A stretch of DNA of 64,000 nt from Terramyces sp. JEL0728 (taxonomy: Eukaryota; Chytridiomycota; Chytridiomycetes; Rhizophydiales; Terramycetaceae): assembly GCA_027603945.1 (NCBI GenBank), contig JADIIU010000019.1, forward strand, positions 62,001-126,000, given 5' to 3'. The notes below the pieces were generated by a model. The model was not told where the DNA came from, did no database searches, and was given only the letters and a program-made list of their open reading frames with translations. Shown one piece after another: positions 2,610 through 64,000 of the stretch. Positions within the stretch are counted from its first letter, which is position 1. Every line of letters starts with the position of its first letter. The position numbers and the translations under genes are program-made.

Positions 2610-5112
2610 ATGGATCCAACACAAAAACTAGTTGAACTCGATACTGGAATCCGGGATATTGAACTGGATATCAAAATTGAATCTATATTGAGTTTCAACA
2701 AGTTATTGTTACTGACTATAGAATAATGGTGAATTCAAAAATAATTCAATCTGCACTGATGAAAATTGCAGATTACTGGGTTCAGAGGTTATTAATGATT
2801 AAATTCAGCAACAACGAATTTAGAGTTTACATTTTAGAGCTGTTCAAAGATCTCAAATGTCTTGAAATGGAGAACGAGAATTCGGATAGGATAGTTGGGA
2901 GGATCAGCACAGTTTTAGATAGCAATGACCCAATTGCAAGAGCATTAACATTCTCTGTTTTGGGGTTCTTGTCCAACTATTCGAATAATGAACAGTTGCA
3001 GTTCAGGATTCTATCTGCTTTGGATAATTCTCAATTGGACGAGATTGAATTATTTGCGATCTTGGAAACAGCCTGTCGTCTTGCGGTTAAAAACGCTGAT
3101 TTTGCTTCCGATTTCTATCAAATTCTTCTTACAAGCCATTCAAGTATATTCTAATTGACTCAGGCAGCAGCAAGTATCGGGAGGTTTACTCGATATTTGA
3201 GCATTCGAGGTTCAGTCTTCCATTAGCTATCAAGGTTCAATCAGATTGATGTTAGGCAAAAGGAATCTGTAGTAAAATTATATCTAAAGAAACCAACATT
3301 GATCATATTCTTCAACTGTACAAGTCTATATCTATTATATCTGTTCGTTGTGGTATCGGAATTGCCCAATATGTATTATCAAAATAACTGTAGATACAAC
3401 AAATACTTCAAGAGATACAATCGTCAAGCTCCTCCGCATTAACTTTGGGTCTGTTGGATAATCTTATTTTCATTGCGGGATACAAACCAGAGATGTTTTC
3501 AACTGGAATTGTTGATTACTTTTTTGAATATTTAATCCGCACAAGCAATTCTCAAATTCGGGCAAGGACTGCCCAACTGCTTTATTCCATTCTATTAAAT
3601 TCACAAAACACCTTAGTTGAACTGCAAGGGCAAGAATTGATCGAAAAGTTTGAAGTAGCTGTCAATCAAGCTATCACTTCTGAACCGGGGTATTGCATAC
3701 CTCTACTCAAGTTGGCTTATTTGGTTTGCCCAGAAGGTGCTTCTGTAGAAAAATGGGCAAATCAATTACTTTTGCCAAATCGCAAAATAAGCTGTAAGGG
3801 TATTTGGATATTATTTCCTCTGCTAAAGTCAACTACTATTATTCAAGAATGTGTAAGAATGTTACTCACCTCCCCAAAATCATTCGTATTGCTTGAAAAA
3901 GTGCTAAAGTTTCAACTCCCAAGGTATTCGCAAAATGTATCTTTGATTGTCAACTCTAAAGATGTTCAAGTTCAATTCAAGGTATTTATATTCTTAGAAA
4001 GATTCTATTTGACCGATATGTATTTCCAGCATCCTTGACAAAAGATAATATTGATTTTAGTGAAATCGCTCATCAATATAACTATTGGGAACTGTACAAA
4101 TTGTGTAGATTACAGATTTGTAAAGGTAATTTCCACAATGCATCACAGCTCTTGGCAGATCTGTTTAATGCAACGAATTCCATTGAGTTTTCTTGTTGGA
4201 TTGCCGCCCTGGAGAAAGTGGTAGAATTTGAGCTTTCAATCAACTCTTTGGCCGAAATTGAAGAGCAAATGAAAGTAATTTTTCAAGCAATCACGAATTT
4301 CAAGGCAGTTTCCAGCATAACTGGTGGTTGCGCATTCCAAATGGATTTTTTGAACTTGCAATCTAAACTTATTAGATTATTACAAATACTGCCTGCGAAA
4401 AATCACCAGGCGGCGATTGGGAGATTGCTGTCCAATTTGTCTGGCGAATTTACAAAACTGGCTTATAGATACTTTGATATCGAGCAGCATAGCCAAAATA
4501 TTCTGTTGCATTATGCCTTTCTTTGCAATTCTTTATACCTTTTGACTCTGTCCAGCACTGTAGAAATTGATCACGAATGTAGCAATTCTGGGTGGTTGTA
4601 TTCCAAGAAATTGGAAATTGCAAATCTGCTTATCAATCAAAAAGAAACCGGAAAAAATGACTTGCAGTCTTCTCTAATTTCAATCTATAAATCAAATAGG
4701 TTGATCCCACCCTACTTTTTTCAGCAGCAATCGCGGTTTTCCATGGATGTAATGAAATACTAATGTAGATTGACACGACTCCGAAAATAATTACTAATAT
4801 ACCACTTAGGATCAGCAAACTGTGCAACTTTGTTTTTGAAATAGATGGGAATATCAAAAACGAATCATCAATTAAAAGTACTTGCAGCTAACCAAAGGGA
4901 AAATCACAAAGCTTGACTTCAAGGTAACCAGCGGAAATGAGATATTGTGTGAATCTAAATGTAACTATTCTCCAATATTCACCATCCAATTGGCGATTCC
5001 AACCGGAGACATGCTAAGCGGGCTTCTTAAATTACAGTTGAAGGTTAACATTATTGATTCCCAACTCAACTTTTGGAATATCAAGAATATCCCATTTTCA
5101 CTCTCAATTTAA
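2610..5112 (+). CDS. INTS7: Integrator complex subunit 7 (intact copy)
   Basis: Eight exons (2610-2701, 2722-3143, 3164-3234, 3256-3372, 3394-3981, 4002-4748, 4769-4877, 4898-5112) joined by seven 20-21-nt introns give 786 residues, against ~960 in human INTS7. The start MDPTQKLVELDTGIRDIELD matches the family N-terminus, and a SNDPIARALT segment matches the conserved SNDPVARAIT of INTS7. The rest is helical-repeat (ARM/HEAT) protein with a short beta-rich C-terminal domain. INTS7 is a scaffold of the nuclear Integrator complex, which cleaves nascent snRNA and other RNA polymerase II transcripts. Yeasts lack Integrator, so this argues for an early-diverging fungus. The start is preceded by the long intergenic region; NDUFS1 follows 56 bp after the stop. 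Confidence 0.88.
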
Positions 5113-5168
5113 GACATCAAAATTTTCAGAATAAAAATCTTTTGGTTTGAAAAAAATTTCATCTGCAG

Positions 5169-7372: not shown

Positions 7373-7403
7373 AAATAAATCCATTCAAAATTTTCACTTT
7401 TGC

Positions 7404-8139: not shown

Positions 8140-8185
8140 TGTGCTAATGTATAAATAAACAAAAGAATTTATTCAGTCTTGTTGC

Positions 8186-8670
8186 TTAATATCCAGATGC
8201 CTGTCTGTCGTAGTTGGCACCCATCGCCTTTTGCAAAAGCAAAGTGATTTTTTGTTCTTGCAAATCCTTATATTAAAACGCGATTACTTCAAGGGATTCG
8301 GCAGATACCTCAACAGCAAATGATTTAATTACAGATTTGACGTCTGCAATATGGACTGAGAGCTTGCCGCGTCTCATTACTTTTACTTGCGCACCACACC
8401 AGCTAACTAAGAGAAATTTGGAGCGACGAGACTAAATCAAAACGTATTTACCAATTCGTCGTTTCCTACTACCATACGCACATAGCCAAAGTATGCTTGA
8501 TCAGGTTTTAAGTTTTGTTTGAATTCTGCAAAACCACCATTACCCGATCCAACAAGAGAAAGCACTTCGCCCTTCTCGTCCTTGTATCCAATGATCAACC
8601 AGTTGGTGTTGGTTTTGTCATTACGAACATCTTCGTAAGCTTTGGAGATATCGGATCCTAATTGAGGCAT
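8186..8670 (-). CDS. Coactosin-like ADF-H actin-binding protein (unit 1)
   Basis: Three exons (8670-8452, 8431-8288, 8266-8186; introns 20 and 21 nt) give 147 residues, the usual coactosin length. It is one ADF homology domain: ISKAYEDVRNDKTNTNWLIIGY at the start (Ala-Tyr-x-x-Val-Arg-x-Asp is characteristic), the actin-binding strand with RRSKFLLVSWCG, and the end GANYDRQASGY, matching the coactosin GGANYDAQ tail. Coactosin binds F-actin and opposes capping. The gene is convergent with MDM12, 46 bp between stops. Its unit 2 copy encodes the same protein in the part compared. Confidence 0.88.
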
Positions 8671-8761
8671 ATTTTTGACAGCAAGTTTTGTGTGTGGAGA
8701 ATCTTTTATAATTTGACATCACCAATCAAAATTTAGTATCTCACCCATTGTTCATAGACAA

Positions 8762-9938
8762 TTAAATCTCTTTATTGAAAGTCGCAATTTCACTCCAGTC
8801 CAGTCCCAAAAGATAGAGGATGTTTAAAAGATTTGGCTGGTTTAATCTTACTTTTGCTTGCTGTTGCACCTTTGGCTTTGCGTTGAATGCAATCCCAACT
8901 CCAGCCTCCGCTAGCATGAGTAAATCATTTGCACCATCTCCGACTGCGAATATCTACGTTATTTTACTGTTACTTGTTGCTTGATTATTCCCTCTGCCTG
9001 CGCGATAGTAGTCAAAAGATCCGCTTTTCTCTCCCCGTTCACAATTTGGCCATATACTCTACCCGTCAAACTGCTTTTATCTGGGGAAAATTCCAAATTG
9101 TTTGCAAATGCGTAATCAAGTTTAAGCGTATTTTTAACATGGAGAGCCAAAGGCATAAACCCACCTACCATTAGAGACATGTACCAGAAAGCACTGCCAT
9201 TTTATAGCCAAGATGCTTTAAAATTCTGCACAGATCTATCGCCCCGTCTGTAAACACAATTCTTCCTTTGACAGTTTCGATAATCTGAGTTGGCTGCCCT
9301 TTGAGCAATCCCACTCTTTGTCTTAGCGATTCATTGAAATCAATTTCGCCTCGCATTGCAGATTCAGTTATAGGAGCAATTTTATCATAGACACCTGCTT
9401 CTCTTGCCAATTCGTCAATAACTTCTTGTCTAATCAACGTGGAATCCATATCAAATACAACCAATCTTTTCTGCCTTCGATACGGCTCATCCAATTGTAA
9501 TGCAACGTCAATGAGAGTTTCCTGCCCGAATTCGAATAGTTTTGGAGCCAACTGCGAGTAATCTGCTTCTGACAGTGCTAGTGAAATTTCTAGAGCAGTG
9601 ACGGGTTCATCCGGTACGGACAATTGTCTAATCTTGTAAATATTTGGCAAAGTTGAAACCAATGCATAGAGATGAATAAATGAAATCCCTCTGGTTGAAA
9701 TTACAGTTGCAACGAAATTTCGAAGGTTTTTAGTAGCAAAGGAATTCTTTGAAATTGGAGGAAATTGGTATTCAAACAGATTCAACACTTTGGCCTTGGC
9801 ATAGAACGAATGTTGCTGTGTCTTTTCGCAATATCCATATTCTAAATTCGTGAGGTATTGAATTTGCGCTGAATACAATGAAATTTGATCGAATGTCTCT
9901 ACAACAGACAAATTTGAAACTAGCGGTTGGAATTGCAT
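8762..9938 (-). CDS. SER2: Phosphoserine phosphatase (unit 1)
   Basis: Three exons (9938-9185, 9164-8974, 8953-8762; two 20-nt introns) encode 378 residues. The HAD-fold catalytic motif VVFDMDSTLI carries the nucleophilic Asp. Further on are the motif II serine (AVLSGGF, spanning the first intron) and the metal-binding GDGANDLLML (motif IV). About 165 N-terminal residues form an ACT-like regulatory region as in bacterial SerB-type enzymes. The enzyme makes the last step of serine synthesis from phosphoserine. I start at the ATG of MQFQPLV, since the frame extends a few codons upstream without ATG. It sits next to sulfate-reduction genes, and serine is the carbon precursor for cysteine, which suggests a linked role. 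Confidence 0.92.
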
Positions 9939-10073: not shown

Positions 10074-10863
10074 TTATTGCAGATTCAGCATTTTCCTCTT
10101 TTCAGCCTCCTTTGCCAATCGCTTTAGTTTAAAGTAATCTTTATGCAGACCGCATTCAGTCTTTTCTTGGCCCCTCCATCTTCCTTCACGCTCGCTTTCA
10201 CCTTCAGCAGTCGGTGTTGTGGAATGCGAGTCGCCAATTGACTTGTAGCCCTGATCATGCAGTGCGTTATATGGTACATTGTTTCCTTTGACATAGGTCC
10301 ATACTTGATTATAATCCCAGGCGGCTAACGGGTTGATTTTAATCAATGGAGGAGAATAAGAGTGGTCCAATTCAATGATTGGCAATGCACTTCTTTCGGC
10401 GCCTTGCGATCTTCGTCTTCCGGTTAAAACAATCTTTGCCCCAAGTTCAAGGTTAGCTCTTCGTCCTGGTTCCGCCTTCACCAAGTAATCGTATTTGGCA
10501 GAATCTGTGGTCCACAGGGATTCACCGTACTTTTCTGCAAACTCCTGAGCGGTATCTGCCCCTGCTGGCTTATAAATGTGCAATTTGGGGGAATACCTTT
10601 GCTTGGTATTTTCAATCAAATCGTAAGTTTCACTAAAATCTAGAATTAGACCAGAAATTACTGTGAAGAGTATCAATAAATATTACTGGTAATAGAGACT
10701 CGGCCTTTGCGAGCATATCCATGATAACCAAGCCAGTTAATCCAAAGGAAGTGGTTTGGTACACTCCGTCGTAGCTCGTTACCCAGCGAAGGATTTCTTC
10801 TGGAGTCTTCTCTCGCAGAGTCAAGTTTAATTCATCAATTTCCGAAACTTCAATCTTGGTCAT
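10074..10863 (-). CDS. MET16: PAPS reductase (unit 1)
   Basis: Two exons (10863-10662, 10639-10074; one 22-nt intron) give 255 residues. The protein has the adenine-nucleotide alpha-hydrolase fold: TTSFGLTGLVIMDML (PP-loop-like), FIDTLHNFSETYDL, TGRRRSQGAERSALP with the substrate-binding arginines, and the KTECGLH segment with the catalytic cysteine. It reduces 3'-phosphoadenylyl sulfate to sulfite with thioredoxin, the step before sulfite reductase. It shares a divergent ~294-bp promoter with MET5. The extra Cys pairs of plant-type APS reductases are not seen, which favours PAPS as the substrate. The unit 2 copy differs by Thr to Ser just before the catalytic motif (KSECGLH). Confidence 0.93.
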
Positions 10864-11111: not shown

Positions 11112-11157
11112 ATTCCCAAGACTTATAAGAGATGAACCGATTGAAAACTTTCAGAAA

Positions 11158-14100
11158 ATGCTCCAGGACAAACATACCTTGTTGAGCTACCTAAGGTAAA
11201 TATAAATTGATGGCAGCTACGATCTTTCTTCTGCGACCATTGTGGTTGACCATTCGCTAGACACCAGTTTAATCCATGCGTGGGTTGGACAGAAGCAGAA
11301 CAATCTTTTTGGAAGCGTTGGCCAACTGCATCAAGGACATTCAGTCACTTCCAGTTTACTTGCAAACTCTGGTGTGCCAATCACAGTGTTTTCAAGTCAA
11401 TCTGCCCTTGGAGACATATTAGCAGTTGCAGGAGAAAGAGGGATCGTATTCCATGTTCCATTCTCTGGGTCAATTAGCCAAAATGTCGCAATGGCAAAGC
11501 TTGGCGGGGCCGTAATATTGATTTCAAACACTCCAGATCAATTATACTCCAATGCGCATCTCGCTTATCTGCTTGCAACAAGAGGAAATGTAGTTCATTA
11601 CTATCATCTCACTAACGATGAAAAGTCTGAAAATTTCAAAGATTTTGACTTGGCTCTGATTGCCAAATATATTAATAGTAAAGACTCTACAAATCCTCAA
11701 GTATTCGCAAAACAACACGGAATTGATGCCAAGAGCTTTGTTTCCATTGGAGATATAGATGCGTCTTCCGTTATTGTTGGTTTTGGGGGTTGTGATTTAA
11801 CAACTGACAAACTTTGTGCCCACAATTCATTATTTGTCCAAATTGTTCAGTTAAACCCATTCAACTCCAAGGAGTTCCTTGATTTAGTGCCAAAAAATGC
11901 AAAGGAAATTTATTTGGTTGACTCTGTGGAGTTGCTGTATGCTGACATTGTCCAAACTCTCCAAACCAAGGATTCCTATCAAAATGTAGTTATAGAACAG
12001 TTGGATGAAAAATCTCCCTTGCACTCTCATTTTGAATCCAAAAGCCCTGTCGCTTCTCCCGTTTCCAAAGCAAATTCACACACTGAAATCCTGAATTCAA
12101 TTTTCAAAGATCAGCTGCAAATATTCAACAGCAAAGGTTCCCCAGAAGTAGCTTTTGGCTCGTTGATTTCCGATTTACAAAAACTGGAGACTTTTGTACA
12201 GTCCGTGTCTGAATTGTCCAATTCAAACATCTCTGGCGAATTAAAGTCACATCTGGACAAGTGGTTGAAGCTCAACAGCAAAGTCGATGACTCCTTATCA
12301 AAGAAATTGATTGAAGAGTCATCAACATTGGGCCAGACAGAATACGTTAGACTTCATCAAGAATATTTTAAAAGAAAATCTCGCTGGATAGTGGATGTGG
12401 AAACATTGTTGGATCTCAGTAATACCACTATTCACACTATTTTGTCATCTGGTGAAAACGTAAACTTGTTGATTGTGGACCACTGTCCTTACGACCCTGA
12501 ACTGCCAGCCGCAAAAAATAGGAGAGATGCTGGCTTGTACGCATTGAATTACAACAATGCGTACGTCGCTGCAATCTGCCCTCTCTATTCTTACACGCAA
12601 GCTGTTCAAGCATTGAAAGAAGCGGACGAATTCACCGGTCCTTCTGTCATTATCTTGCACGCACCTCAGGCTAATAGCGGTGGAAAAACTAAAGGCAGCC
12701 TGCAATCAATCAAGTTTGCAAAGAAGGCGATTGATAATGGATTGATTACCCTGTATCGCTGGACGCCAAAAACAGACAACTCCAAAGAAACTTTGGTGGT
12801 CGACTCCTCAAAAACTAAAGCAACATTGCAAAAGCATTTGGACAAGGGGGCTACTCTTTCATTATTACTGGAAGAAACCAAATTGAATGAAAATTCCGAT
12901 CTTGGGAACCAGATTGAGTCCAAAGTTCAACAAAAAGTGCTTGATAGTTACAAAAAGTTATTTGGTGGAATGAACAAGAAAAAATTGTTAATATTGTTTG
13001 GTTCAGATGGTGGTAACGCTGAAAGCTTGGCAAAGCGAATTGGTATGGAGGCAAAGGAAAAAGGTTTGTTTGTCAAAACCATGCCAATGGATTCATTCGT
13101 CACTGAAGATTTAGTCAGTGAAGAAAATGTATTGTTTGTTATTTCTACTGCAGGGCAAGGGGAATTCCCTGGAAACTCAAGGGAAACTTGGAAATTCTTG
13201 GCTGCTAATGAAATTGATCTTTCCAAGACAAACTACTCGGTCTTTGCTTTGGGCGATAGACAATATTGGCCAAGACCGGAAGACGCTCACTACTTTGCTA
13301 AAGCTGGTAAAGATTTGGATATTAGGCTGGCCAAACTGAATGGTGTTCGTTTGACTCCAATTGGGGTTGGTGATGACCGAGACCCAGATGGCTACTTTAC
13401 TGGATTCAATCTTTGGGCCCCAGAGTTTTGGACTTCTTTAGGAGTGGAAGCTGAATCTCTTGGTAATCAAGCAGCTGTGCCAAGTGATGATGCGATTAAA
13501 GCAGCAAGTAATTATTTGAGAGGTACCATTGCTGAAGGGTTATTGGACACTTCTACCGGAGCATTGGCTGAATATGACACCAAGGTATTTGTTCTTAATT
13601 GTAGCTCACCAAGTTCCACGGGATTTATCAGCAGGACGACAGAGATATCAGAGAATTAAGAGCAAGAAAGGGTCTCGAAAAGGCTTACTCATTTATGATC
13701 CGGGTCAGGGTTCCTGGTGGTATTGCTACACCTGCCCAGTATATTGCGATGGATGATATTAGTGACAAATGGGCAAACGGAACTATCAAGCTGACCACAC
13801 GCCAAGCTTTCCAGTTCCATGGTATCGTAAAGAGCGTTTTAAAAAGATCAATGCAAGACATTAACAAGTCCCTGTTAGGTACTTGATCCCTAATTTAGAT
13901 TCCATTGCAGCCTGTGGTGATGTTAATCGTAATGTAATGTGTAATCCTGATATTGAAAACACTGACATTCACAAGATTGTCTTTGACTTTGCCAAAAGAT
14001 TTAGCAACCATCTCTTACCAGCTACGGCAGCTTACCACGAGATTTGGTTGGACAAGAAATTGGTAGCGGGAGGCGAAGTTGAACCACTCTATGGGAAAAC

Positions 14101-16518: not shown

Positions 16519-16533
16519 TTCTTTCAGATCTGA

Positions 16534-17245: not shown

Positions 17246-19667
17246 GTTTCAACAAGTTATTGTTACTGACTGTAGAATAATGGTGAATTCAAAAATAATT
17301 CAATCTGCACTGATGAAAATTGCAGATTACTGGGTTCAGAGGTTATTAGTGATTAAAATTCAGCAACAACGAATTTAGAGTTTACATTTTAGAGCTGTTC
17401 AAAGATCTCAAATGTCTTGAAATGGAGAACGAGAATTCGGATAGGATAGTTGGGAGGATCAGCACAGTTTTAGATAGCAATGACCCAATTGCAAGAGCAT
17501 TAACATTCTCTGTTTTGGGGTTCTTGTCCAACTATTCGAATAATGAACAGTTGCAGTTCAGGATTCTATCTGCTTTGGATAATTCTCAATTGGACGAGAT
17601 TGAATTATTTGCGATCTTGGAAACAGCCTGTCGTCTTGCGGTTAAAAACGCTGATTTTGCTTCCGATTTCTATCAAATTCTTCTTACAAGCCATTCAAGT
17701 ATATTCTAATTGACTCAGGCAGCAGCAAGTATCGGGAGGTTTACTCGATATTTAAGCATTCGAGGTTCAGTCTTCCGTTAGCTATCAAGGTTCAATCAGA
17801 TTGATGTTAGGCAAAAGGAATCTGTAGTAAAATTATATCTAAAGAAACCAACATTGATCATATTCTTCAACTGTACAAGTCTATATCTATTATATCTGTT
17901 CGTTGTGGTATCGGAATTGCCCAATATGTATTATCAAAGTAACTGTAGATACAACAAATACTTCAAGAGATACAATCGTCAAGCTCCTCTGCATTAGCTT
18001 TGGGTCTGTTGGATAATCTTATTTTCATTGCAGGATACAAACCAGAGATGTTTTCAACTGGAAATGTTGATTACTTTTTTGAATATTTAATCCGCACAAG
18101 CAATTCTCAAATTCGGGCTAGGACTGCCCAACTACTTTATTCCATTCTATTAAACTCACAAAACACCTTAATTGAACTGCAAGGGCAAGAATTGATCGAA
18201 AAGTTTAAAGTAGCTGTCAATGAAGCCATCACTTCTGAACCGGGGTATTGCATACCTCTACTCAAGTTGGCTTATTTGGTTTGCCCAGAAGGTGCTTCTG
18301 TAGAAAAATGGGCAAATCAATTGCTTTTGCCAAATCGCAAAATAAGCTGTAAGGGTATTTGGATATTATTTCCTCTGCTAAAGTCAACTACTATTATTCA
18401 AGAATGTGTAAGAATGTTGCTCACCTCCCCAAAATCATTCGTATTGCTTGAAAAAGTGCTAAAGTTTCGACTCCCAAGGTATTCGCAAAATGTATCTTTG
18501 ATTGTCAACTCTAAAGATGTTCAAGTTCAATTCAAGGTATTTATATTCTTAGAAAGATTCTATTTGACCGATATGTATTTCCAGCATCGTTGACAAAAGA
18601 TAATATTGATTTTAGTGAAATCGCCCATCAATATAACTATTGGGAACTGTACAAATTGTGTAGATTACAGATTTGTAAAGGTAATTTCCACAATGCATCA
18701 CAGCTCTTGGCAGATCTGTTTAATGCAACGAATTCCATTGAATTTTCTTGTTGGATTGCCGCCCTGGAGAAAGTGGTGGAATTTGAGCTTTCAATCAACT
18801 CTTTGGCCGAAATTGAAGAGCAAATGAAAGTAATTTTTCAAGCAATCACGAATTTCAAGGCAGTTTCCAGCATAACTGGTGGTTGCGCATTCCAAATGGA
18901 TTTTCTGAACCTGCAATCTAAACTTATTAGATTATTACAAATACTGCCTGCGAAAAATCACCAGGCGGCGATTGGGAGATTGCTGTCCAATTTGTCTGGC
19001 GAATTTACAAAACTGGCTTATAGATACTTTGATATCGAGCAGCATAGCCAAAATATTCTGTTGCATTATGCCTTTCTTTGCAATTCTTTATACCTTTTGA
19101 CTCTGTCCAGCATTGTAGAAATTGATCACGAACGCAGCAATTCTGGGTGGTTGTATTCCAAGAAATTGGAAATTGCAAATCTGCTTATCAATCAAAAAGA
19201 CACCGGAAAAAATGACTTGCAGTCTTCTCTAATTTCAATCTATAAATCAAATAGATTGATCCCGCCCTACTTTTTTCAGCAGCAATCGCGGTTTTCCATG
19301 GATGTAATGAAATACTAATGTAGATTGACACGACTCCGAAAATAATTACTAATATACCACTTAGGATCAGCAAACTGTGCAACTTTGTTTTTGAAATAGA
19401 TGGGAATATCAAAAACGAATCATCAATTAAAAGTACTTGCAGCTAACCAAAGGGAAAATCACAAAGCTTGACTTCAAGGTAACCAGCGGAAATGAGATAT
19501 TGTGTGAATCTAAATGTAACTATTCTCCAATATTCACCATCCAATTGGCGATTCCAACCGGAGACATGCTAAGCGGGCTTCTTAAATTACAGTTGAAGGT
19601 TAACATTATTGATTCCCAACTCAACTTTTGGAATATCAAGAATATCCCATTTTCACTCTCAATTTAA
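17209..19667 (+). pseudogene. INTS7: INTS7 copy in unit 2: 5'-truncated, frameshifted
   Basis: This copy begins at codon 16 of INTS7, directly after SWEET coding sequence, so promoter, start codon and MDPTQKLVELDTGIR are missing. A one-base insertion near 17354-17362 (ATTAAAATTC against ATTAAATTC in unit 1) shifts exon 2; the next codons read VIKIQQQRI and stop. Downstream exons are largely preserved with all introns. A transcript might start at the downstream ATG at 17422, but it would lack the N-terminal repeats. I judge it a pseudogene that arose with the duplication. Confidence 0.85.
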
Positions 19668-19722
19668 GACATCAAATTTTCAGAATAAAAATCTTTTGGT
19701 TTGAAAAAAATTTCATCTGCAG

Positions 19723-21926
19723 ATGCTCAGAAGAAACATTAGAAAAGCACAGAATTTAATCAGTATTTCATTAAAGTCTAACTATTAGGGGAATTTTCGT
19801 CAACTTCACGCATCAACGCAGAAGTCGAAGTTTTTATTAATGACAAACCAGTTAAAATTGAAGCAGGATCGGCAGTAATTCAAGCATGTGAAAAAGCTGG
19901 AGTTGATATTCCAAGATTTTGTTACCATGAAAGACTAGGAATTGCTGGTAATTGCCGTATGTGTTTAGTTGAAGTTGGCGGTCCAAAGCCTGTAGCATCG
20001 TGTGCGATGCCTGTGATGCCAGGAATGAAGGTGCAGACTGAAACACCTAATGTCAAGAAAGCTAGAGAAGGTGTTATGGAGTTTTTGCTGGCCAACCATC
20101 CCTTGGATTGTCCAATTTGCGACCAAGGAGGAGAATGTGATTTGCAAGATCAAAGTATTCGCTATGGCGCTGATAGGAGTCGCTTCAAGGAGGTCGTCGG
20201 GAAAAGGGCGACAGAAAACAAGGATCTCGGTCCTCTCGTCAAAACAGTTATGACTAGATGTATCCACTGTACGCGCTGTGTAAGATTTGCAAACGAAATT
20301 GCAGGAGCGAGTGAATTAGGAACCACCGGCAGAGGAAATTCTATGGAAATTGGCACCTATGTTTCAAAAGCTATAAAATCGGAAATGTCAGGAAACTTGG
20401 TTGATTTATGTCCTGTAGGTGCATTAACCTCAAAACCGTATGCATTTACAACTCGACCATGGGAATTGAAAAGGACAGAATCCATTGATGTGATGGACGG
20501 TATTGGTAGCAATATCAAAGTGGACACTAGAGGAAATGAAGTTATGAGGATCGTTCCAAGACTAAACGATGATATAAACGAAGAGTGGATTTCTGATAAA
20601 TCAAGATTTGTCAGCGATGGATTAAAAAATCAACGACTCACCTCGCCTCTTGTCAAGAAAGGTAATGATTTTGTTCCAGTGTCGTGGGCTGACGCATTAC
20701 AAACTGTTGCAAACGCCTTGAAAGAAACGGATCCAGAACATATCGCAGCGGTTGCTGGACAACTTTCTGATGCAGAAAGTTTAGTTGCATTAAAGGATTT
20801 GATCAACAAATTCAACTCTGACAACCTGTACACCGAATCAAACCTTGAAGTTGCAGGCGGTTTAACTGATATACGCTCCAACTATGTACTGAACTCTTCA
20901 ATTGCTGGTATTGAAGAAGCAGATGCTCTTCTCTTGATTGGTTCAAACCCAAGACATGAAGGCCCAATTTTAAATACCCGCATTAGAAAGTCATATTTAC
21001 ACAACGGACTACAAATAGGTGTAGTTGGTGAAAAGGGCGATTTAAATTATGATGCTGAACATGTTAGTGCGGATGCTTCTGGTTTGGACAAATTGTTGTC
21101 TGGGGAACACAAATTTTCGAAAACTCTATCTTCTGCAAAAAAACCATTGCTGCTTCTTGGACAATCCACATTGGACGACCCTGCCGTGTTGAAAAAAGCT
21201 TCAGAGTTGGCTTTGAAGCTTTCCAAGTCTGCCTCTTCGGAATGGACCTCTATTTTCAACGTTTTACAAAAAGTAACTTATTTTTGATTGTAGGATGCAA
21301 GTTCTACCGCAGCGTTTGATGTTGGCTATTCCACTCAAGCCCCAAAGGCAAATACAAAGTTCTTGTATCTTTTAGGTGCTGACGACATTGATCCAAGTAA
21401 CATCCCAAAGGACGCATTTGTGGTATATCAGGGCCACCACGGTGATGTTGGTGCCTACTATGCTGATGTCATCCTTCCAGGGTCAGCATACACCGAAAAG
21501 TCGGCGACATATGTAAACACCGAAGGAAGAGTCCAAACAACTCGTTCTGCTATTCCACCTCCAGCAGGTGCCAGAGAAGACTGGAAAATTGTCCGCGCAC
21601 TGTCAGAAGTTGCAGGAAAGAAATTACCGTATGATGAAGTCCACCAATTACGTTCTAGAATGGTGCAAGTTTCCCCAACCTTTGCTGGATTTGACGAGTT
21701 TGAGAAAACTTCATCGCCTGTCGTACAACTTGGCTTATCCCATATTAAAGCATATACGGCTACTACTACCCAACCACTTCAATTGGCTTTCAAAGACTTT
21801 TATATGACCAATTCAATTGCTCGTTCATCTTCTACAATGGCCAAATGCTCCCAAGTAAGATATCATTAATTATAGGCATTTACGCATGGGAAAAAGATTG
21901 AGAACGAGGTCCCAGAATTATGTTGA
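19723..21926 (+). CDS. NDUFS1: NADH dehydrogenase 75 kDa subunit, complex I (unit 2)
   Basis: Second intact copy, same four-exon structure and 711 residues, with mitochondrial presequence and all iron-sulfur cysteines. Seen amino acid changes against the unit 1 copy are Ala to Thr in ADALQTVANALK and Ile to Asn in DPSNIPKDA; most base changes are silent. Its promoter region lies between the broken INTS7 copy and the start codon and differs from unit 1 by a one-base shortening of an A run, so expression should be similar. Confidence 0.95.
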
Positions 21927-21958
21927 AAATAAATCCATTTCAAAATTTTCACTTTTGC

Positions 21959-22694
21959 ATGTCTTTTGACATAAACTGGAGTTTGTTACAGGATGGGTTT
22001 GAAGCGGAGCAGTTGAAGGATTACCTCAATGAAAAGTTTGCAGATATCGTACGGCCAAATTTTCTAGGTCCAGTATCAGTTTCAAAATTTGATTTCGGAA
22101 GCATTCCTCCCCAAATCTCTGTAACAAACATTTGCGAGCCTTTGGACGAATTCTATTATTTAGATGACGATAATTCGGAAGAACTGCAGTCAGAGTTGGA
22201 GGATGGGTCGTTTAATAGTAATTTTTCATCCTACTATAATAACAGCGAAGATGACACAATGATACCCAGAAAAGAAACAGATGCGCAAGTCGAAATTTCT
22301 ATTGCATACCAAGGAGATATGACAATGTCAATTACGACTGAGCTGATCGTCAATCAACCAACACCTGGCTTTATGATACTCCCGCTCACTTTAACGCTAA
22401 CCAAAACCTCGCTAAAAGGTGCAGAATACTAATTATAGCGACGGCTATTATCGCATACTTGGGAAATATTATTAATATTTGCTTGAAAGAACCAGAGAAC
22501 AGAGAAAGTTTTCTGCAAGATTTATCAATTGAATCCGCAATTGGCGATGGCAACAAACAAGGTAGCCATTACTTAATGTAGTGCTGAAAAATGTTGGCAA
22601 AATTGAAAAGTTTATTGTCCAGCAACTCCAGATTTTCCTCAACGACTATGTCGTGTTCCCAAACTACCATTCAATATTACTCGACGATTCATAG
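21959..22694 (+). CDS. MDM12: Mdm12, ERMES complex SMP-domain protein (unit 2)
   Basis: Second intact MDM12 with three exons and 231 residues. Its second intron has the better branch-like TTAATG where unit 1 has TTGATG. The acidic insert reads ELEDGSF instead of ELEHGSF. The single-base insertion just before its start codon (CCATTTC against CCATTC) is in the 32-bp gap after NDUFS1 and does not affect either frame. Confidence 0.9.
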
Positions 22695-22741
22695 TGTGCT
22701 AATGTATAAATAAACAAAAGAATTTTATTCAATCTTGTTGC

Positions 22742-23226
22742 TTAATATCCAGATGCCTGTCTGTCGTAGTTGGCACCCATCGCCTTTTGCAAAAGCAAAG
22801 TGATTTTTTGTTCTTGCAAATCCTTATATTAAAACGCGATTACTTCAAGGGATTCGGCAGATACCTCAACAGCAAATGATTTAACTACAGATTTGACGTC
22901 TGCAATATGGACTGAGAGCTTGCCGCGTCTCATTACTTTTACTTGCGCACCACACCAGCTAACTAAGAGAAATTTGGAGCGACGAGACTAAATCAAAACG
23001 TATTTACCAATTCGTCGTTTCCTACTACCATACGAACATAGCCAAAGTATGCTTGATCAGGTTTTAAGTTTTGTTTGAATTCTGCAAAACCACCATTACC
23101 CGATCCAACAAGAGAAAGCACTTCGCCCTTCTCGTCCTTGTATCCAATGATCAACCAGTTGGTGTTGGTTTTGTCATTACGAACATCTTCGTAAGCTTTG
23201 GAGATATCGGATCCTAATTGAGGCAT
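22742..23226 (-). CDS. Coactosin-like ADF-H actin-binding protein (unit 2)
   Basis: Second copy with identical three-exon layout and 147 residues; exon 1 translates identically to unit 1. One change in the middle exon is ATT to ACT (Ile to Thr class change) in the codon region around SVIKSFAVE, seen as TTTAATTAC against TTTAACTAC on the plus strand, which leaves the frame open. Confidence 0.87.
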
Positions 23227-23318
23227 ATTTTTGACAGCAAGTTTTGTGTGTGGAGAATCTTTTATAATTTGACATCACCAATCAAAATTTAGTATCTTCA
23301 CCCATTGTTCATAGACAA

Positions 23319-24495
23319 TTAAATCTCTTTATTGAAAGTCGCAATTTCACTCCAGTCTAGTCCCAAAAGATAGAGGATGTTTAAAAGATTTGGCTGGTTT
23401 AATCTTACTTTTGCTTGCTGTTGCACCTTTGGCTTTGCGTTGAATGCAATCCCAACTCCAGCCTCCGCTAGCATGAGTAAATCATTTGCACCATCTCCGA
23501 CAGCGAATATCTACGTTATTTTACTGTTACTTGTTGCTTGATTATTCCCTCTGCCTGCGCGATAGTAGTCAAAAGATCCGCTTTTCTCTCCCCGTTCACA
23601 ATTTGGCCATATACTCTACCCGTCAAACTGCTTTTATCTGGGGAAAATTCCAAATTGTTTGCAAATGCGTAATCAAGTTTAAGCGTATTTTTAACATGGA
23701 GAGCCAAAGGCATAAACCCACCTACCATTAGAGACATGTACCAGAAAGCACTGCCATTTTATAGCCAAGATGCTTTAAAATTCTGCACAGATCTATCGCC
23801 CCGTCTGTAAACACAATTCTTCCTTTGACAGTTTCGATAATCTGAGTTGGCTGCCCTTTGAGCAATCCCACTCTTTGTCTTAGCGATTCATTGAAATCAA
23901 TTTCGCCTCGCATTGCAGATTCAGTTATAGGAGCAATTTTATCATAAACACCTGCTTCTCTTGCCAATTCGTCAATAACTTCTTGTCTAATCAACGTGGA
24001 ATCCATATCAAATACAACCAATCTTTTCTGCCTTCGATACGGCTCATCCAATTGTAATGCAACGTCAATGAGAGTTTCCTGCCCGAATTCGAATAGTTTT
24101 GGAGCCAACTGCGAGTAATCTGCTTCTGACAGTGCTAGTGAAATTTCTAGAGCAGTGACGGGTTCATCCGGTACAGACAATTGTCTAATCTTGTAAATAT
24201 TTGGCAAAGTTGAAACCAATGCATAGAGATGAATAAATGAAATCCCTCTGGTTGAAATTACAGTTGCAACGAAATTTCGAAGGTTGTTAGTAGCAAAGGA
24301 ATTCTTTGAAATTGGAGGAAATTGGTATTCAAACAGAGTCAACACTTTGGCCTTGGCATAGAACGAATGTTGCTGTGTCTTTTCGCAATATCCATATTCT
24401 AAATTCGTGAGGTATTGAATTTGCGCTGAATACAGTGAAATTTGATCGAATGTCTCTACAACAGATAAATTTGAAACTAGCGGTTGGAATTGCAT
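23319..24495 (-). CDS. SER2: Phosphoserine phosphatase (unit 2)
   Basis: Second copy, 378 residues in three exons, catalytic DMDST, SGGF and GDGANDLLML motifs kept. Differences from unit 1 are in the N-terminal ACT-like half (for example KVLTLFEYQ against KVLNLFEYQ and ATNNLRN against ATKNLRN), while the phosphatase domain is unchanged. This pattern suits relaxed constraint outside the active site. Confidence 0.92.
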
Positions 24496-24630
24496 GTTAA
24501 TTTCCAACTTTTTTTCATGGTGATTTGACTGATCCCATGTGAAATGAATGGGCTTTCTTTGGCTATAAAGGGCAAATGTTATCGGTGCGCAATTGCAGCA
24601 ACATGCTCAAGATAAATACAAGAAATTGGT

Positions 24631-25420: not shown

Positions 25421-25660
25421 TGCCGAGTGATATATTTTTTTCGTTTAAATATTTCCAATCAATCTCCAAATAGCACAATTATTGCGTGCTCTTGAGACAA
25501 ACATAAGAAAAAAAGAAGAGAATAGAAACTTGCTCGAATGATAGCCATTTACTACCACTGGCTACCAGGACAGTGCTTGGAAAAATTATAGGAACAATCC
25601 TGCAATTTCTCCATTTAATTCTACTGCATAAAACAGACAAATGTGGTCTGACAATTTTGG

Positions 25661-25668
25661 TCACGTGA
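25661..25668. promoter_or_regulatory. Cbf1-type E-box TCACGTGA (unit 2)
   Basis: Identical palindrome, same spacing to the MET5 and MET16 starts as in unit 1. The AAATGTGG core and CAGAC...GTCTG inverted repeat upstream are also unchanged, although the surrounding promoter has several substitutions. Confidence 0.65.
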
Positions 25669-25714
25669 ATTCCCAAGACTTATAAGAGATGAACCGATTG
25701 AAAACTTTCAGAAA

Positions 25715-29714: not shown

Positions 29715-29767
29715 AATATTTCATCATGATATTTAAATAAACACAATTACAGGAATTTTATATTGGA

Positions 29768-31075: not shown

Positions 31076-31090
31076 TTCTTTCAGATCTGA

Positions 31091-43271: not shown

Positions 43272-46034
43272 ATGGGGATATCAGGTAAACCAGTCCCACC
43301 CGGCCTTAGAATAGTTAGTGATCTTGAAGAGTCTCAAAGCCTTAGCAACAGTATTAATTGTTAATCCAGGGGACGAAGGCGCGTACAAAACTTCAAATCA
43401 AATAAGACAAGTAATAATTTCTAAATCAGAAAACTATAGGATGGGTAACGTCAAATACATTACACTCGCCATTGCCTTCGTCAAGTGTCCGATTAGTTTC
43501 AGACGAAAATCCTGCTGGTTTTGAAAATGCACCACCAGCGAATACATGGACGATTCAAAGATCTTTGAAGATGATAGATATATTCAAAGCTTTTCCGTCG
43601 GCATTTCTTGCAATTTTGCTGACCTATCTGGATGCGGTGTCGTATGGGATAATCATATTTCCACAACTAGATAGCAACTTACCGAAAAGTGCTCCACAAG
43701 CAGGGATATCAATATTTCTATTTAGCACAATTATATCGCAGATAGTCTTTTCAATTGGGTCGCAATTTAAAGGTGCAGTGGGGAGTATGGTGAAAACATA
43801 ACTAACCCAGACAATTGAATTGGTGCCGTTCTTGAACAACATCTGCGCTGTAATTGAGACACAGATGCAGGGTATGCCTGTGGAGAGCATCATCGCAACA
43901 ATAATGACTTCATTTGCTTCTAGTGCAATACTTACTGGTTTGACATTTCTGGCAATTGGATATTTCAAACTGGGCAGCATCATACACTTTTTTCCAAGAC
44001 ATATTCTAGTCGGGTGTATCGGAGGGATTGGATTGTTCCTTGTTTTAACGGCAATTGAAGTGACTGCACATGAAAAATTCGACCTCAGTTTTGATTACTT
44101 GACTGGAATTCTTCAAGCCAAAAAAATACTACTATGGGGCACCAGCTTGATCATTGCTGCAACATTAAAATTACTGCAGCGGTACAACAAACATGCACTG
44201 TTGATTCCAGCGTTTTACGTATTTTCATTTGCAATGTTTTGGGCGATAGCTGGATCCTTGGATATATCAATAGAAAGTTTAAGAGCAAATGGCTGGCTGC
44301 TGGATTTTGTAGATGGGGAAAATGTTCCCTTTTATGAATTCTGGACTTACTATGACTTTGGATTGGTCAATTGGAAAGCAGTTGCAGGTAAATAAAGTTA
44401 ATCCAGCTACAATACCTACTCAAATAGCAATGACATTCTTTGGAGTGTTACAGGTGCCTATTCACGTTCCGGCGCTATCCGTTTCTACCAATCAAGATAT
44501 TGTATTCAGCGACGAATTGTTTTTACATGGCGTTAGTAATTTACTAGCGGGAATATCTGGAACTCTCCAGAATTATATGGATTACGCAAACTCTTTGTTT
44601 TATATCAGGTCAGGAGGGGAATCAAAACTCAGCAATGTTATCCTCATATGCGGAACAATCATTCTCTGGATTGAAGGCAAGGAAATCCTATTCATTATTC
44701 CATCCATCGTTGTGGGAGCGTACGTTATGATTAACTTTAGTTTAATTTTTCATATAGGCATGGACTTGATTTATGAAAGTTTGATTGAGACTGTGCATGA
44801 TGGAATCGAGCCTTTGGAATATGCAACGGTGTTGATCATTACATTCATCATGGGGTTTGTCGGGTTTCCAGAAGGCATTGGAGCCGGCGTTGTCCTTTCC
44901 TGCATATTCTTTGTTTTTATGTACTCGAGATCGTCCCCAATCAGGGAAACCTTCACTGGAAAAGATGTTAGTTCAACAATTAGCAGGCCGTTCCGACAAC
45001 ACATGTTTCTGGATAAGGTTGGCACCCAGACAAGGATCCTTAAACTGCAAGGGTAAGCAAATTCTGATCTTAGATTCATGTTTTTTGGTACAGCGAACCA
45101 ATGTAATATGAATTAACAACAGTAGAAGAAAGTATCAAAGATATGACATCCAGGTCTGAACCAATTAGATTTATCATTCTTGATTTTGCTTTAATCACCG
45201 GGATTGGCTACTCTGCTTTGGAGACTTTCAAGAGAGTGAAAAGAAATCTAAAGAAACACAATATACATTTGATACTGTGCAATTTAGGCCAATTCACTCA
45301 AAAGCTACAATCATCAGGTATTTTCGAGTTAGATATGGACGAAAATAATGAAATGGAAGAGAGAATTGTTCACATATTACCCACCCTTAACGACAGTTTG
45401 GAGTATACAGAGAGTTTCTTTTTGGAGAGTCTCTACAACCAAACTGCCGAATTTTCATCAATTGATATCGACAGTGAATCGCCATGCAACTCACCTAGAG
45501 AAAAACAGCTATCAATTGCTGCTGTAACTGTGTTGGAAGGTAATTTATCCTGATACAGATCATCCAATGATAAACTATACTTTTCCAGGATACCAGCGAC
45601 CATTCAAATCACTATTTCAAGCAATATTAGATAGTGATAGTATCGATGACGAAATCCTTGAAGTTTTTGGAGCCGAATTTGTAAAGATGGAGTTTAAAGA
45701 AAATCAAATTGTGTACAAAAAGAGAACTGCTGCCCACAGTCTGTATATACTTGAAAGTGGAGAGCTGGCGTTACTGTCTGACAGCGACACAATCGTTGAA
45801 ACGGTTTTACCTGGATGTATGATTGGTGACATGGAACTGATCTCAAACAGACCCAGGATTTGCACACTAAAGTGTACTTCCCCAGCGGTTGCATGGGCAC
45901 TTTCGAGAGAGTCCTTTACAAAACTAACAAGATCCCATCCGTATTTAGCCGTCCAATTCATCAGGTTGATTGCAATGCCATTCAATTCGGCAAGGCTATA
46001 CAATATGGTCCACCATTGGGCTCAATTACGTTAA
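43272..46034 (+). CDS. SulP-type transporter with STAS and cyclic-nucleotide-binding domains (Vsb1-like)
   Basis: Eight exons with seven introns of 19-21 nt encode 874 residues. After a ~95-residue polar N-terminus come the SLC26/SulP membrane helices (from IFKAFPSAFLAILLTYLDAVSYG, through MGFVGFPEGIGAGVVLSCIF). Then a STAS domain (IRFIILDFALITGIGYSALETF) and a C-terminal cyclic-nucleotide-binding-like domain (MEFKENQIVYKKRTAAHSLYILESGELAL, VLPGCMIGDMELISNRPR). This order is that of fungal Vsb1/YGR125W, a vacuolar membrane protein tied to arginine storage in yeast, rather than of plasma-membrane sulfate permeases. Substrate cannot be read from sequence. Confidence 0.85.
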
Positions 46035-55987: not shown

Positions 55988-57477
55988 ATGGACTTCAAGT
56001 ACGACTTGAAAGAATCTGCAAACTTTATCGAGGGCAAGCAAAATATCTGTCTTCAATTCCCAGATGAATTGCTTGCAGACGCCCCTCTAGTTGCCCAGCA
56101 CCTTAACTCGGACTCTGTATTCATTATGGCTGACACTACGTTTGGCCCATGCTGTGCCGACCTGATAGCTGGTCAACATGCTTCCGCTGATGCAATTATA
56201 CATTATGGCCCTGCATGTCTGACAAGGCAAGTATTTCCTAAATTAGACCGGGAAAAGAGTCTCCGCCTATTTTGTATGTTTTTGAAAAGCAAGCTGTTGA
56301 TATTGACGATTTGGCTGCAAAAATCGAATCTACCTTTACTGATAGCCAACCAGTAATAGTACTTGGCGATACCTCCACTTATCATATTTGGCCTGCCCTT
56401 CAGAACAGAATACCGCTTCCCAATTTTATATGGTCCAGAATAGAAAAAGAGGTCCACAACGATGCTGAAGAAGAGGAGAAAATCCACGGACGGATTATTA
56501 GCTTGCCGGACAATGTGCAGATGCAAGACTGTGTTTTGTTTTATATTGGTGCAGATTCTCTCTGCCTGTCTAATTTGGTAATGTCGATATCTCCTGCTTC
56601 AGTTGTAATATACACTCCCGACACTAAAGAAATCAACGGGCATTATGGCCAGTTGCAGTCGGTTTTGCAGAGACGGTTTGTGCAAATGGAAAAAGCTAGA
56701 GACGCCAATGTCATTGGGATTGTTGTGGGTACTTTAGGAGTTGGTAAGTTGGACCGTTGGTAAATGATGACCATTAGATGCATTCTATAGGAAGAGCCGT
56801 CGTAACAATATCGAGAGATAATTTGACGACCATTTACTTCTGCTGATACCAAATTTTTATTCTTCAGACTAACCTTAGCATCTTATTTGGAGGTGGTGAA
56901 CACCTTGAAGGAATTAATTATAGCTAGTGGCAAAAAGCCCTATATTCTTGCTGTTGGCAAGCCAAATCCCGCAAAGTTAGGAAACTTTCCTGAAATTGAT
57001 TGCTTTGTGTTAGTCGCTTGTCCCCAGAACTCTATTCTAGATTCAAAAGAGTATTTTTACCCTATCGTTACTCCCTACGAGCTGTCCCTCGCTTTGGACA
57101 AAAAATCCATCTGGAATCCGTCCAAATACGAATTGAACCTCAGTCGTATGATGCAAGGTCTTTCGGTGCAACTTGAGGATACCAAAATTAGAGCTTCGGA
57201 ACACCACGACTCTGACGATGAACCGCATTTTTCTCTGATTACTGGTCAATACGCAGTCAAGAAAGGCTTCGTGACAGTTACCAACGATGAAGATGTCCCA
57301 GGGGAATTCATGATGATCAAAAAGGAAGGCGGACAGCTTTCAAAGTTTGTTACATCAAATGTCGGTGCAGAATTCTTGAATAGCAAATCCTTCAAAGGGT
57401 TGGAACCTAAAATAGGGGAAACTAAAGTGGAACTCGCAGAGGAAGGTAGAAGCGGTATTGCAAAGAATTATGAATAA
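55988..57477 (+). CDS. DPH2: Diphthamide biosynthesis protein 2
   Basis: Three exons (55988-56226, 56247-56743, 56879-57477) encode 444 residues. Family blocks: NICLQFPDELLADA, ADTTFGPCCADLIAGQHASADAIIHYGPACL with radical-SAM-like Cys, VGTLGVASYLEVVNTLKEL, VACPQNSILDSKEYFYPIVTPYEL and the ending EEGRSGIAKNYE. With Dph1 it makes the first step of diphthamide on elongation factor 2. Intron 1 is a 20-nt GC-AG intron (AG|GCAAGT donor); intron 2 is 135 nt, six times the local norm, and hosts a C/D snoRNA. Confidence 0.93.
56757..56852 (+). ncRNA. C/D box snoRNA, probable U49 (SNORD49) homolog
   Basis: Inside the 135-nt intron of DPH2. C box ATGATGA is at 56764-56770, D box CTGA at 56843-56846, and the flanking TTGGTA (56757-56762) and TACCAA (56847-56852) form a perfect six-base terminal stem. 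The internal guide ATAGGAAGAGCCG (56787-56799) is a 13-base perfect complement to CGGCTCTTCCTAT of eukaryotic 25S/28S rRNA. A degenerate D' (CGTA, 56801-56804) puts the fifth upstream base, G56796, opposite the C that human U49 methylates (28S C4426 in the older numbering). The rRNA comparison is from memory of yeast and human LSU sequence. No second guide assigned above the D box. Confidence 0.82.
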
Positions 57478-61873: not shown

Positions 61874-62030
61874 AATATTTCATTTGCTTATTCTTTGCGT
61901 TCAAATCTCCTTCCGGCAATTGCTCAAATTGACTCTTCCAATCATCCATTCTTGTATCACATATTCTTTTTATTGCAATGATTGATACGTGGTACTTTAT
62001 TTTTGCAATCATTTTTCAAAGCAAAATCCA

Positions 62031-64000
62031 ATGAGTTCAAATCTCAAAGGCAAACTGTCCTTAATTCTAGGAAAATTTCAGTTCAGTGGAATTCCACCTC
62101 GTAAAAAGAGGTCAGAATCAAACTTTGAATTAAAGAAAAACGTCGAGCAGACTGTTACAACCAAGAAACCAATTCAAACTGAAACTAATACTGGATTTCA
62201 AGTAAAACCAAATGACTGGGGATTTGACGATGAAATTGATTGGGGGCAAGTAAATAATGCAGAAATAACTGCAGAAACGAATGGCAGAAACGATCCAACT
62301 TTTGATAATGTACAATCTACGAACAAGACTGGGTTTAAATCATTCGAGAAGGATCCTGTCGCCAATATCAATTCTGCAAAATCAACACCAGTGCCGATTT
62401 CGAGCGCACAATTCAAAGATACAACATCAAGCATAAAAAAGATTTCCCCGCAACAAACAGTTCTATCTGTTACCAAATCTATAAGCACAGGAGTTTCGCA
62501 ACCAGATGAAGTTATAACAAAAAAGATTCCTACACCAAGACTGTCTCCCAAGAAGGTGGTAATGGTGACTAGTGAACCACTTGTAGATGATGCATCTTGG
62601 GATAAGGATAACAAGTGGGGAGATTGGAATTCACCAGAAATCCCTCCGGTGCTTGACCTCCCTATCAAACAACATGCTCCACCAACAGTCACAAAATCAA
62701 GCCCTCCAAAAGCTAATCTAAAGTCGCCGTTAAATGAATCAGCTATGAAATCAAGTACAGCGAAATCACCTTCCTTTGGAAAAGCTAGTCCAATCAGCAA
62801 CCCTGTTGTTGTGCCTTCATTAGCACAAGCTGGAAACAATATTTCTCAAGATACAGCAAGTTGGGATATTGGAGATGAAGACTTGTTTACCCAGAACGTT
62901 GGAGAATCTATAGATAAGACATCCGCTGGCAGACCGTCCCCCGCTGCAAGTCTCCTTAAAAGTCCGGCTGCAAATGCAGTTCAACCTTCTCCAAAACCCA
63001 AGCCTACAACCCAAATGGAACAATTGCCATATAAAAGCCCAACCATAAATAATATCCAACCTTCTCCAAAAATCGTGCAGCCCTTCACAGAAAAGTCCCC
63101 AAATAGAGGCACACCTCTACAAATTGTAGAAACTGCAAGTCTGCAATATCTTCCTGTGACTTCCAGCCCAAAACCAGCTATTTCAGCATTGCCAGCTCCT
63201 CAAAAGTCACCTGCTGTCCGAGCAGCAAGTCCTAACAAGAGATCGCCGGCGATAAACAAAAGCCCAAAGCTCCAACAGAAATCAGAAAGCCCACAATTGG
63301 CATTTGATCAAGTGCCAGGCAAAAACAAATCCAAAGAAATGATGTTGACTTCAGCCCCTGGATTTTTAGCAGCTCAGCCAGAAAACAATCCTCCAAGAAC
63401 TACAAATTCGTTTCAAACAAGCCCAGTAATTCCTTCCAAATCGCCAGAGGTACCATTTCGCAAACAGTCCACTGCTTTCCAAGATCAACCTGGAAATTTG
63501 CAGTACTTTCCATCTGAACCAGCAACTACCTTTGAACAGAACGGTCAACATGTAAATATTAATTGATTTTTAGGACACAGTTGGCTATTTCGTGCAAGAT
63601 CCTACTCAAATCAATCATGGCCAGCAAGGAAACGCTCTTTACGACGAATATGGCTATCCAATACAGCCAGATACTTTGGGAAATAATGCTCAGTATGATG
63701 AGCGCGACCATACCAGGATACTAAACTCTACTAGTGAACAAGATTGGTATGCGCAGCAGGCTAGTTACAACACAGAAATTGGTGATCAAAATCTTGGTAA
63801 TTATGGTTTGGGATTGAAGCTTCAAAATCAAACCGTTGACCCTAATTATCAACCTATGAATCAGGAAGCTAGTATGCAGCAAGCTGTACAGGAGCAGCAT
63901 CATATTCAGCAGCAGTATATATCCCAACATTACCAACCAGAAATGGCTCAGTTCCATGGAAATACTGAGACTCTAGAATCAAAATTTGCCGACTCGCAGC
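62031..64000 (+). CDS. Ser/Pro-rich disordered protein, possibly SEC16 N-terminal region (3' partial)
   Basis: ATG at 62031, one 22-nt intron (63552-63573), and the frame is still open at the window end after about 649 residues. It has three acidic tryptophan patches (NDWGFDDEIDWG, SWDKDNKWGDWN, SWDIGDEDLFTQN), many KSP/SP sites and a Gln/Tyr-rich part with YDEYGYPIQ. EDLFTQ-type motifs with nearby Trp also occur in the N-terminus of yeast Sec16, and TFG, its partner at ER exit sites, is encoded 3.5 kb upstream. This is a weak match; the diagnostic Sec16 central domain would lie outside the window. Confidence 0.45.

Follow-up and report, generated by a model that had tools for sequence, protein, structure and literature searches.

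Putative spliceosomal introns of 19–22 nucleotides predominate in sequence of the chytrid fungus Terramyces sp. JEL0728

Introduction

Among the closest described systems, the nucleomorphs of chlorarachniophytes carry introns of 18–23 nucleotides (nt) as a rule, with GT-AG borders (excerpts of PMC4494063), and a 23-nt Trichomonas intron has been called one of the shortest known (excerpts of PMC12316389). In Cryptococcus, a mean intron of 63 bp has been called relatively short for a fungus (excerpts of PMC8476143). Here, we describe a 64,000-nt stretch of the Terramyces sp. JEL0728 genome (contig JADIIU010000019.1, C19:62001-126000; assembly of 15.0 Mb in 231 contigs), referred to as the window, in which most genes appear to be interrupted by introns of about 20 nt. 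An earlier note on this DNA had proposed tiny spliceosomal introns in a fungus and had compared them to those of the nucleomorphs; both the proposal and the comparison hold up. Because the length peak, the splice and branch signals, 21 junctions supported by homologous proteins, a U2 small nuclear RNA (snRNA) and splicing-factor genes all fit, we conclude that the segments are very probably U2-type spliceosomal introns, held to 19–22 nt in most genes.

Results

Gene finding covered the window and 25 other 10-kb stretches (20 contig starts and five interior stretches), 314 kb in total. A signal-free run used codon statistics, stop codons and GT..AG borders and assigned the same probability to every length between 8 and 200 nt; the codon statistics were trained first on long open frames and afterwards on the gene finder’s own output. 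This run returned 214 introns, 75 of which were 19–22 nt long (16, 35, 18 and 6 at 19, 20, 21 and 22 nt, respectively), with the remainder thinly scattered. The peak was unique to GT..AG; control runs with seven other dinucleotide pairs yielded 3–9 calls at 19–22 nt. Counting the motif GTA..YTRAY..YAG by length, with no gene models and on both strands of the 314 kb (628 kb), gave 93, 149, 68 and 29 occurrences at 19, 20, 21 and 22 nt, compared with an average of 17.7 at 24–150 nt; the count at 22 nt is weak taken alone (log10 P −2.1), and no length other than 19–22 nt rose above the mean plus four standard deviations. Genome-wide, the pattern GTAATTN{0,30}TTAATNNTAG had 189 matches against 29 for the same pattern backwards, and among the 100 of the 189 matches that were listed, 91 are 20–23 nt and nine are 29–44 nt long.

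Splice-site matrices were then learned from the 75 signal-free introns of 19–22 nt. With learned signals and flat lengths, 341 of 416 introns were 19–22 nt long; the donor matrix alone placed 221 of 335 introns in this range, the acceptor matrix alone 242 of 373, and a retrained codon model with no matrix 179 of 391. The final decoder added to the learned signals a mixed length model, weighted 70% to the peak and 30% to a flat distribution, and it allowed GC donors. It called 458 introns, with 91, 217, 95, 30 and 4 at 19, 20, 21, 22 and 23 nt, respectively; the remaining 21 fell outside this range. The share at 19–22 nt (433 of 458, 94.5%) is partly circular because the matrices derive from introns of that length, and coding lengths divisible by three are a constraint of the decoder and hence no evidence in its output; the signal-free run and the model-free motif count are free of this circularity. 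Could sequencing errors, the assembly or the gene finder have produced the length class artificially? The partial circularity and the known errors of the decoder, detailed below, would speak for it. Against it stand the recurrence of the peak in the signal-free, flat-length run and in the model-free count, homologous proteins that run on across the junctions, and an in-frame, stop-free intron among those so supported, and we consider an artefact to be next to impossible.

Within the window, decoder introns number 103, including 99 at 19–22 nt; when a tandem duplication described below is counted only once, through its first copy, the numbers are 76 and 72. The claim of the earlier note that introns here are almost all 19–22 nt long is borne out in the window as in the 314 kb, and the outer coordinates that it gave are those of the first and last decoder introns (2702-2721 and 63552-63573). 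Its estimate of about 60 introns is below the decoder count. The 458 calls occupy 3.3% of the 314 kb, at 1.8 introns per kb of coding sequence; by extrapolation from these 314 kb, which consist mostly of contig starts, the genome would hold approximately 21,000 introns. At the level of sequence, predicted introns near 20 nt are confirmed as a genome-wide rule, and one more extensive than had been stated.

Homologous proteins support 21 tiny-intron junctions. On the plus strand, the two 20-nt introns in the gene for the sulfite reductase beta subunit, a MET5-like hemoprotein (13585..13604 and 13879..13898), are crossed without gaps by the alignment to PDB 6c3m, as are the three HIS6 introns (40890..40908 and 40986..41004, 19 nt each; 41219..41238, 20 nt, also spliced in the public model) by the alignment to PDB 2agk; the two former introns and the first of HIS6 had been singled out in the earlier note, and all three stand. 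On the minus strand, gap-free alignments support a 22-nt intron of PAPS reductase (10640..10661; PDB 7rge), two 20-nt introns of phosphoserine phosphatase (9165..9184 and 8954..8973; PDB 5is2) and a 21-nt intron of a coactosin-like gene (8267..8287; PDB 4liz); a second intron of the latter (8432..8451, 20 nt) is supported by the same structure with a one-residue gap about three residues off the junction. One further supported junction, with GC-AG borders, lies in Prp18, and three lie in Isy1, whose protein in this genome is 93% identical to that of Boothiomyces sp. JEL0838.

The remaining seven supported junctions belong to a sulfate transporter gene on the plus strand. The 19-nt intron 43411..43429 leaves the protein colinear with those of Boothiomyces JEL0866 and three more chytrids, the public model skipping the next exon; 43790..43810 (21 nt) and 44388..44406 (19 nt) leave it colinear with all six listed homologues, and at the latter the public model cuts out 40 nt, dropping residues that all six possess. 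The 21-nt intron 44720..44740 is in frame and free of stops, so that no frameshift was being mended there; the seven residues it would encode are absent from all six listed homologues and from the public model. Introns 45053..45073 (21 nt) and 45103..45122 (20 nt), both spliced in the public model, restore colinearity with five homologues (at the former, the sixth model is without the stretch), and 45540..45558 (19 nt) does so with Boothiomyces JEL0866, the other homologues being divergent here. Alignments spoke neither way on two decoder introns of the plus strand, 43351..43369 (19 nt) at the 5′ end of the sulfate transporter gene and the GC-AG intron 56227..56246 (20 nt) in a DPH2-like gene, where alignment gaps lie nearby.

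The public Terramyces sp. JEL0728 protein HDV01_002647 (1,386 residues) maps to 40980-46031; exact segments account for 1,383 residues, and three residues fall where segments meet. This match assigns the window to Terramyces sp. JEL0728 (Chytridiomycota, Rhizophydiales, Terramycetaceae). The protein fuses the end of HIS6, a second gene and the sulfate transporter. Its model splices six segments of 19–21 nt, so GenBank itself already contains tiny introns by implication; two introns of the gene after HIS6 (41689..41707, 19 nt, and 42857..42876, 20 nt, plus strand) are common to the decoder and this model. At three places the model removes longer stretches, losing residues that are kept in Boothiomyces JEL0866 and, at one of these places, in five other listed homologues as well. 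In the Boothiomyces JEL0866 model, in turn, a skipped stretch has the same end point as intron 45103-45122; this is an indirect hint that tiny introns may occur in that fungus as well.

The anatomy of the introns is uniform. A full YTRAY is present in 57 of the 75 introns that were found without any branch model, the commonest motifs being TTAAT (18), CTAAT (16), TTAAC (9) and TTGAT (8). Within the final set of 433, a branch motif was scored in 391; the branch A falls at +14 or +15 in 334 of these, and five or six nucleotides follow it in 347. The earlier note had placed the end of YTRAY 3–6 nt before the AG; in most introns, 5–6 nt, AG included, follow the branch A, and the distance is therefore 2–3 nt. 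Donors read close to G|GTAATT, with G favoured at exon position −1 and T at donor positions +5 (200 of 433) and +6 (247 of 433), and the branch motif reads TTRAY or CTAAY. The 3′ ends are TAG (291), CAG (98), AAG (41) and GAG (3), and intron G+C is 30%. That nearly all borders are GT-AG, as had been claimed, is true of most introns; GC-AG accounts for five of the 458 calls (donors GCAAGT or GCAATT) and for the homology-supported intron of Prp18.

The weakness of some of these signals, with G at donor position +5 in 85 of 433 introns and a branch motif that is weak in 42 of 433, raises the question of whether many of the segments are true introns that are inefficiently spliced, their retention being regulatory or common noise. 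About half of the introns are 20 nt long and hence frame-shifting, and retention would usually destroy the protein; we regard widespread inefficiency as improbable. It is, in any case, compatible with introns removed by the spliceosome and no alternative to such removal.

Genes for U2-type splicing were detected in the assembly. The U2 snRNA scores 140 bits, and its branch-recognition stretch is the same as the Rfam consensus. SF1 (SF1-HH, 66 and 43 bits), Slu7 (139 and 104 bits; three introns of 20–21 nt predicted within the gene), Prp18 (109 and 56 bits) and Isy1 score above their cut-offs; U2AF65 is represented by a U2AF_lg match of 252 bits (curated cut-off 310) in a gene broken up by introns; a second piece scores 28 bits. 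Loss of Slu7 and Prp18 as a consequence of short intron tails was considered and rejected, both genes being present.

These genes also bear on a different kind of explanation, in which the segments are kept in the mRNA and skipped during translation by programmed bypassing, or in which something other than the spliceosome removes them. DNA alone cannot tell the step at which a segment is removed, and under bypassing the proteins would be identical. Bypassing does not, however, predict GT-AG borders, a branch motif with constant spacing, G at exon position −1, GC-AG donor variants or the machinery genes, and we judge it very improbable. From these features we infer spliceosomal excision of the segments from RNA.

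A working model for such excision can be proposed. U1 and U2 would recognize each intron as a single unit, by intron definition; the branch A would attack the 5′ splice site, giving a lariat loop of about 14–15 nt and a tail of 5–6 nt; and the AG immediately behind the branch point would serve as the 3′ splice site. The two spacings each vary by one or two bases and sum to 19–22 nt, which we take to reflect a limit of spliceosome geometry. Other intron lengths are still accepted, as the minority of longer introns shows.

Several observations weigh against tiny spliceosomal introns as the general rule. First, 21 of the 458 calls lie outside 19–23 nt, and the 19–22 nt range is not absolute, since two longer introns have homology support. 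Second, the decoder made errors: 44720-44740 was missed, 46237-46256 is wrong, and at least three bridging introns were called. Third, the branch motif is weak in the minority of introns noted above. Fourth, a search of the genome for U1 (RF00003) gave no match, with the controls silent too, so that absence is not shown. Finally, U6 (RF00026) is represented by two degenerate, near-identical copies of 27 bits on different contigs (L027 1501-1606 and L028 1501-1605), which keep ACAGAGA and lack the AGC triad; this, likewise, does not show absence. Of two patterns for a U6 split by a tiny intron, the first had no match and the second had one match, which is not U6; an assembly gap would account for the missing intact U6 just as well as a split gene.

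The longer introns that stand alongside the tiny ones are a 135-nt intron in the DPH2-like gene (56744..56878, plus strand, donor GTAAGT), aligned to PDB 6q2d without gaps and with weak similarity where the exons meet, and a 62-nt intron in Isy1 (L040 318-379), both supported by homologous proteins and both with donors reading GTAAGT or GTATGT. Other calls did not survive. In 41285-41379 (95 nt) the HIS6 frame meets a stop, the homologues stop short of 46030-46158 (129 nt), 46237-46256 (20 nt) lies within a wrongly joined tail, and a 56-nt call in Prp18 gave way to the 20-nt GC-AG intron. One more decoder call outside 19–23 nt is 17131-17183 (53 nt).

Some longer segments may be composed of tandem units. 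Candidates are L003 2386-2425 (20 + 20 nt with no gap), L016 8121-8164 (21 and 20 nt flanking CAA), the 5′ end of Isy1 on the minus strand of L040 (units of 20, 20 and 21 nt, spaced 1 and 3 nt apart) and two genome matches (C26:84631-84670 and C30:14748-14788). The HEAT-repeat gene at L003 1140-2766 is presumably similar to INTS4. At the 5′ end of Isy1, the public Boothiomyces model has a single intron, joined differently. At a score cut-off of 2.0, three intron pairs lie 0–28 nt apart, with gaps of 0, 3 and 3 nt, but L024 579-621, one of the three, is more plausibly coding sequence. With the cut-off lowered to 1.0, gaps of 0, 1, 2 and 3 nt are represented by two, one, one and three pairs, gaps of 8, 9 and 13 nt by one pair each, and further pairs appear from a gap of 24 nt upward; the enrichment at 0–3 nt is only a lead. 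One could speculate, as an unlikely generalization, that the spliceosome of this chytrid lineage applies a two-part ruler (13–14 nt before the branch A and 5–6 nt after it), and that longer introns persist only if they have a canonical GTRWGT donor or consist of head-to-tail units of about 20 nt set 0–3 nt apart.

The window contains a 14.56-kb direct tandem duplication (2651-17208 and 17205-31765, 99.22% identical) that includes whole copies of several genes; it may be a genuine tandem duplication or two haplotypes assembled one after the other. Between the copies, predicted exons differ at 18, 11 and 66 sites at codon positions 1, 2 and 3 (4,301 sites each), introns at four of 551 sites and intergenic sequence at eight of 956; none of the five indels falls in an exon, and one falls in an intron. 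The codon-position bias and the placement of the indels both speak for the predicted gene structures. The second copy carries 27 decoder introns of 19–22 nt (17256..31394).

The other decoder introns of the window are as follows. On the plus strand, an INTS7-like gene has eight (2702-2721, 2788-2808, 3144-3163, 3235-3255, 3373-3393, 3982-4001, 4749-4768 and 4878-4897); the stretch 2610-5112 and its duplicate copy match Integrator subunit 7 (Pfam INTS7_N, 92 bits; INTS7_HB, 24 bits). A gene like that of the 75-kDa subunit of NADH dehydrogenase has two (6719-6739, found also without signals, and 7301-7321), and the 5′ part of the MET5-like gene has one that rests on the decoder (11196..11216, 21 nt). 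Further plus-strand introns are 7864-7883, 8007-8026, 16697-16716, 16818-16837, 31948-31967, 32265-32286, 36335-36355, 36870-36889, 50324-50343, 50530-50549, 50678-50696, 50954-50973, 51953-51973, 54748-54769, 54931-54951, 55216-55236, 57680-57698, 57766-57785, 57819-57838, 58868-58889, 59230-59249, 59350-59368, 59704-59722, 60228-60247 and the last, 63552-63573. On the minus strand, one gene, which we take to be VHS/UIM/SH3-like, has five (15378-15397, 15585-15604, 16301-16321, 16389-16408 and 16482-16502). The others are 38655-38675, 39482-39501, 47527-47545, 48010-48028, 48504-48523 and 48714-48732, together with 49186-49204, 49367-49386, 49588-49608 and 50055-50075, all four of which were also called without signals. 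A sulfite oxidase gene occupies 60137-61873. Globomyces (74% identity), a chytrid of the Rhizophydiales, comes first among the matches listed, and no Terramyces or Boothiomyces protein is among the best 120 listed, perhaps owing to missing or mis-joined public models.

Discussion

Near-minimal introns as a rule in a 15-Mb fungal genome would provide a test case for the smallest intron that can be spliced. Terramyces belongs to the order of Batrachochytrium and has sequenced relatives, so the collapse in intron length should be traceable within one order. There is also a practical cost, since gene models such as the public HDV01_002647 suffer. The literature on fungal, chytrid or very short introns that we searched, which included few subscription journals, named among the matches listed no fungus with such introns as a rule; the excerpts available of a chytrid genome paper (PMC13391722) and of a Batrachochytrium genome paper (PMC5364385) gave no intron lengths.

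Mechanistic ideas can be separated by the splicing factors. Yeast can dispense with Slu7 and Prp18 when the branch point is near the 3′ splice site (excerpts of PMC10711555). Both genes persist in Terramyces even though most introns have a tail of 5–6 nt, and short tails therefore need not cause their loss.

Compared to ordinary fungal introns, those of Terramyces share GT-AG borders, a CTAAY-like branch motif and U2-type machinery genes, and are about one third of the Cryptococcus mean in length. Paramecium and Nyctotherus, in which introns of about 25 nt are the rule (excerpts of PMC5014332), are ciliates, and their introns are a few nucleotides longer. The ciliate Stentor coeruleus resembles Terramyces in its very narrow length range, AT-rich introns and short fixed tail after the branch A; it differs in that its introns measure 15–16 nt, have their branch A at nucleotide 10 or 11 and lack a strong branch consensus, and the authors of that study propose that steric clashes are avoided at a 10-nt loop (excerpts of PMC9505925). 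According to the same excerpts, Slu7 and Prp18 were not found in Stentor, whereas both are present here. An altered Isy1 N-terminus has been claimed for Stentor; that of Terramyces depends on how the three tandem units are read.

A further likeness is to the nucleomorphs of Bigelowiella natans, Lotharella and Amorphochlora, in which, as in Terramyces, most introns are ultrasmall. Rare nucleomorph introns of 40–41 nt resemble two fused units (excerpts of PMC4494063), as does L003 2386-2425 here. A nucleomorph, however, is the relict nucleus of an endosymbiont, with 793–1,028 introns, whereas Terramyces has a 15-Mb fungal genome with the extrapolated complement of about 21,000 given above. The phenomenon itself is thus known from nucleomorphs and Stentor; what appears to be new, judging from sequence and from the literature searched, is its occurrence as the rule in a fungus.

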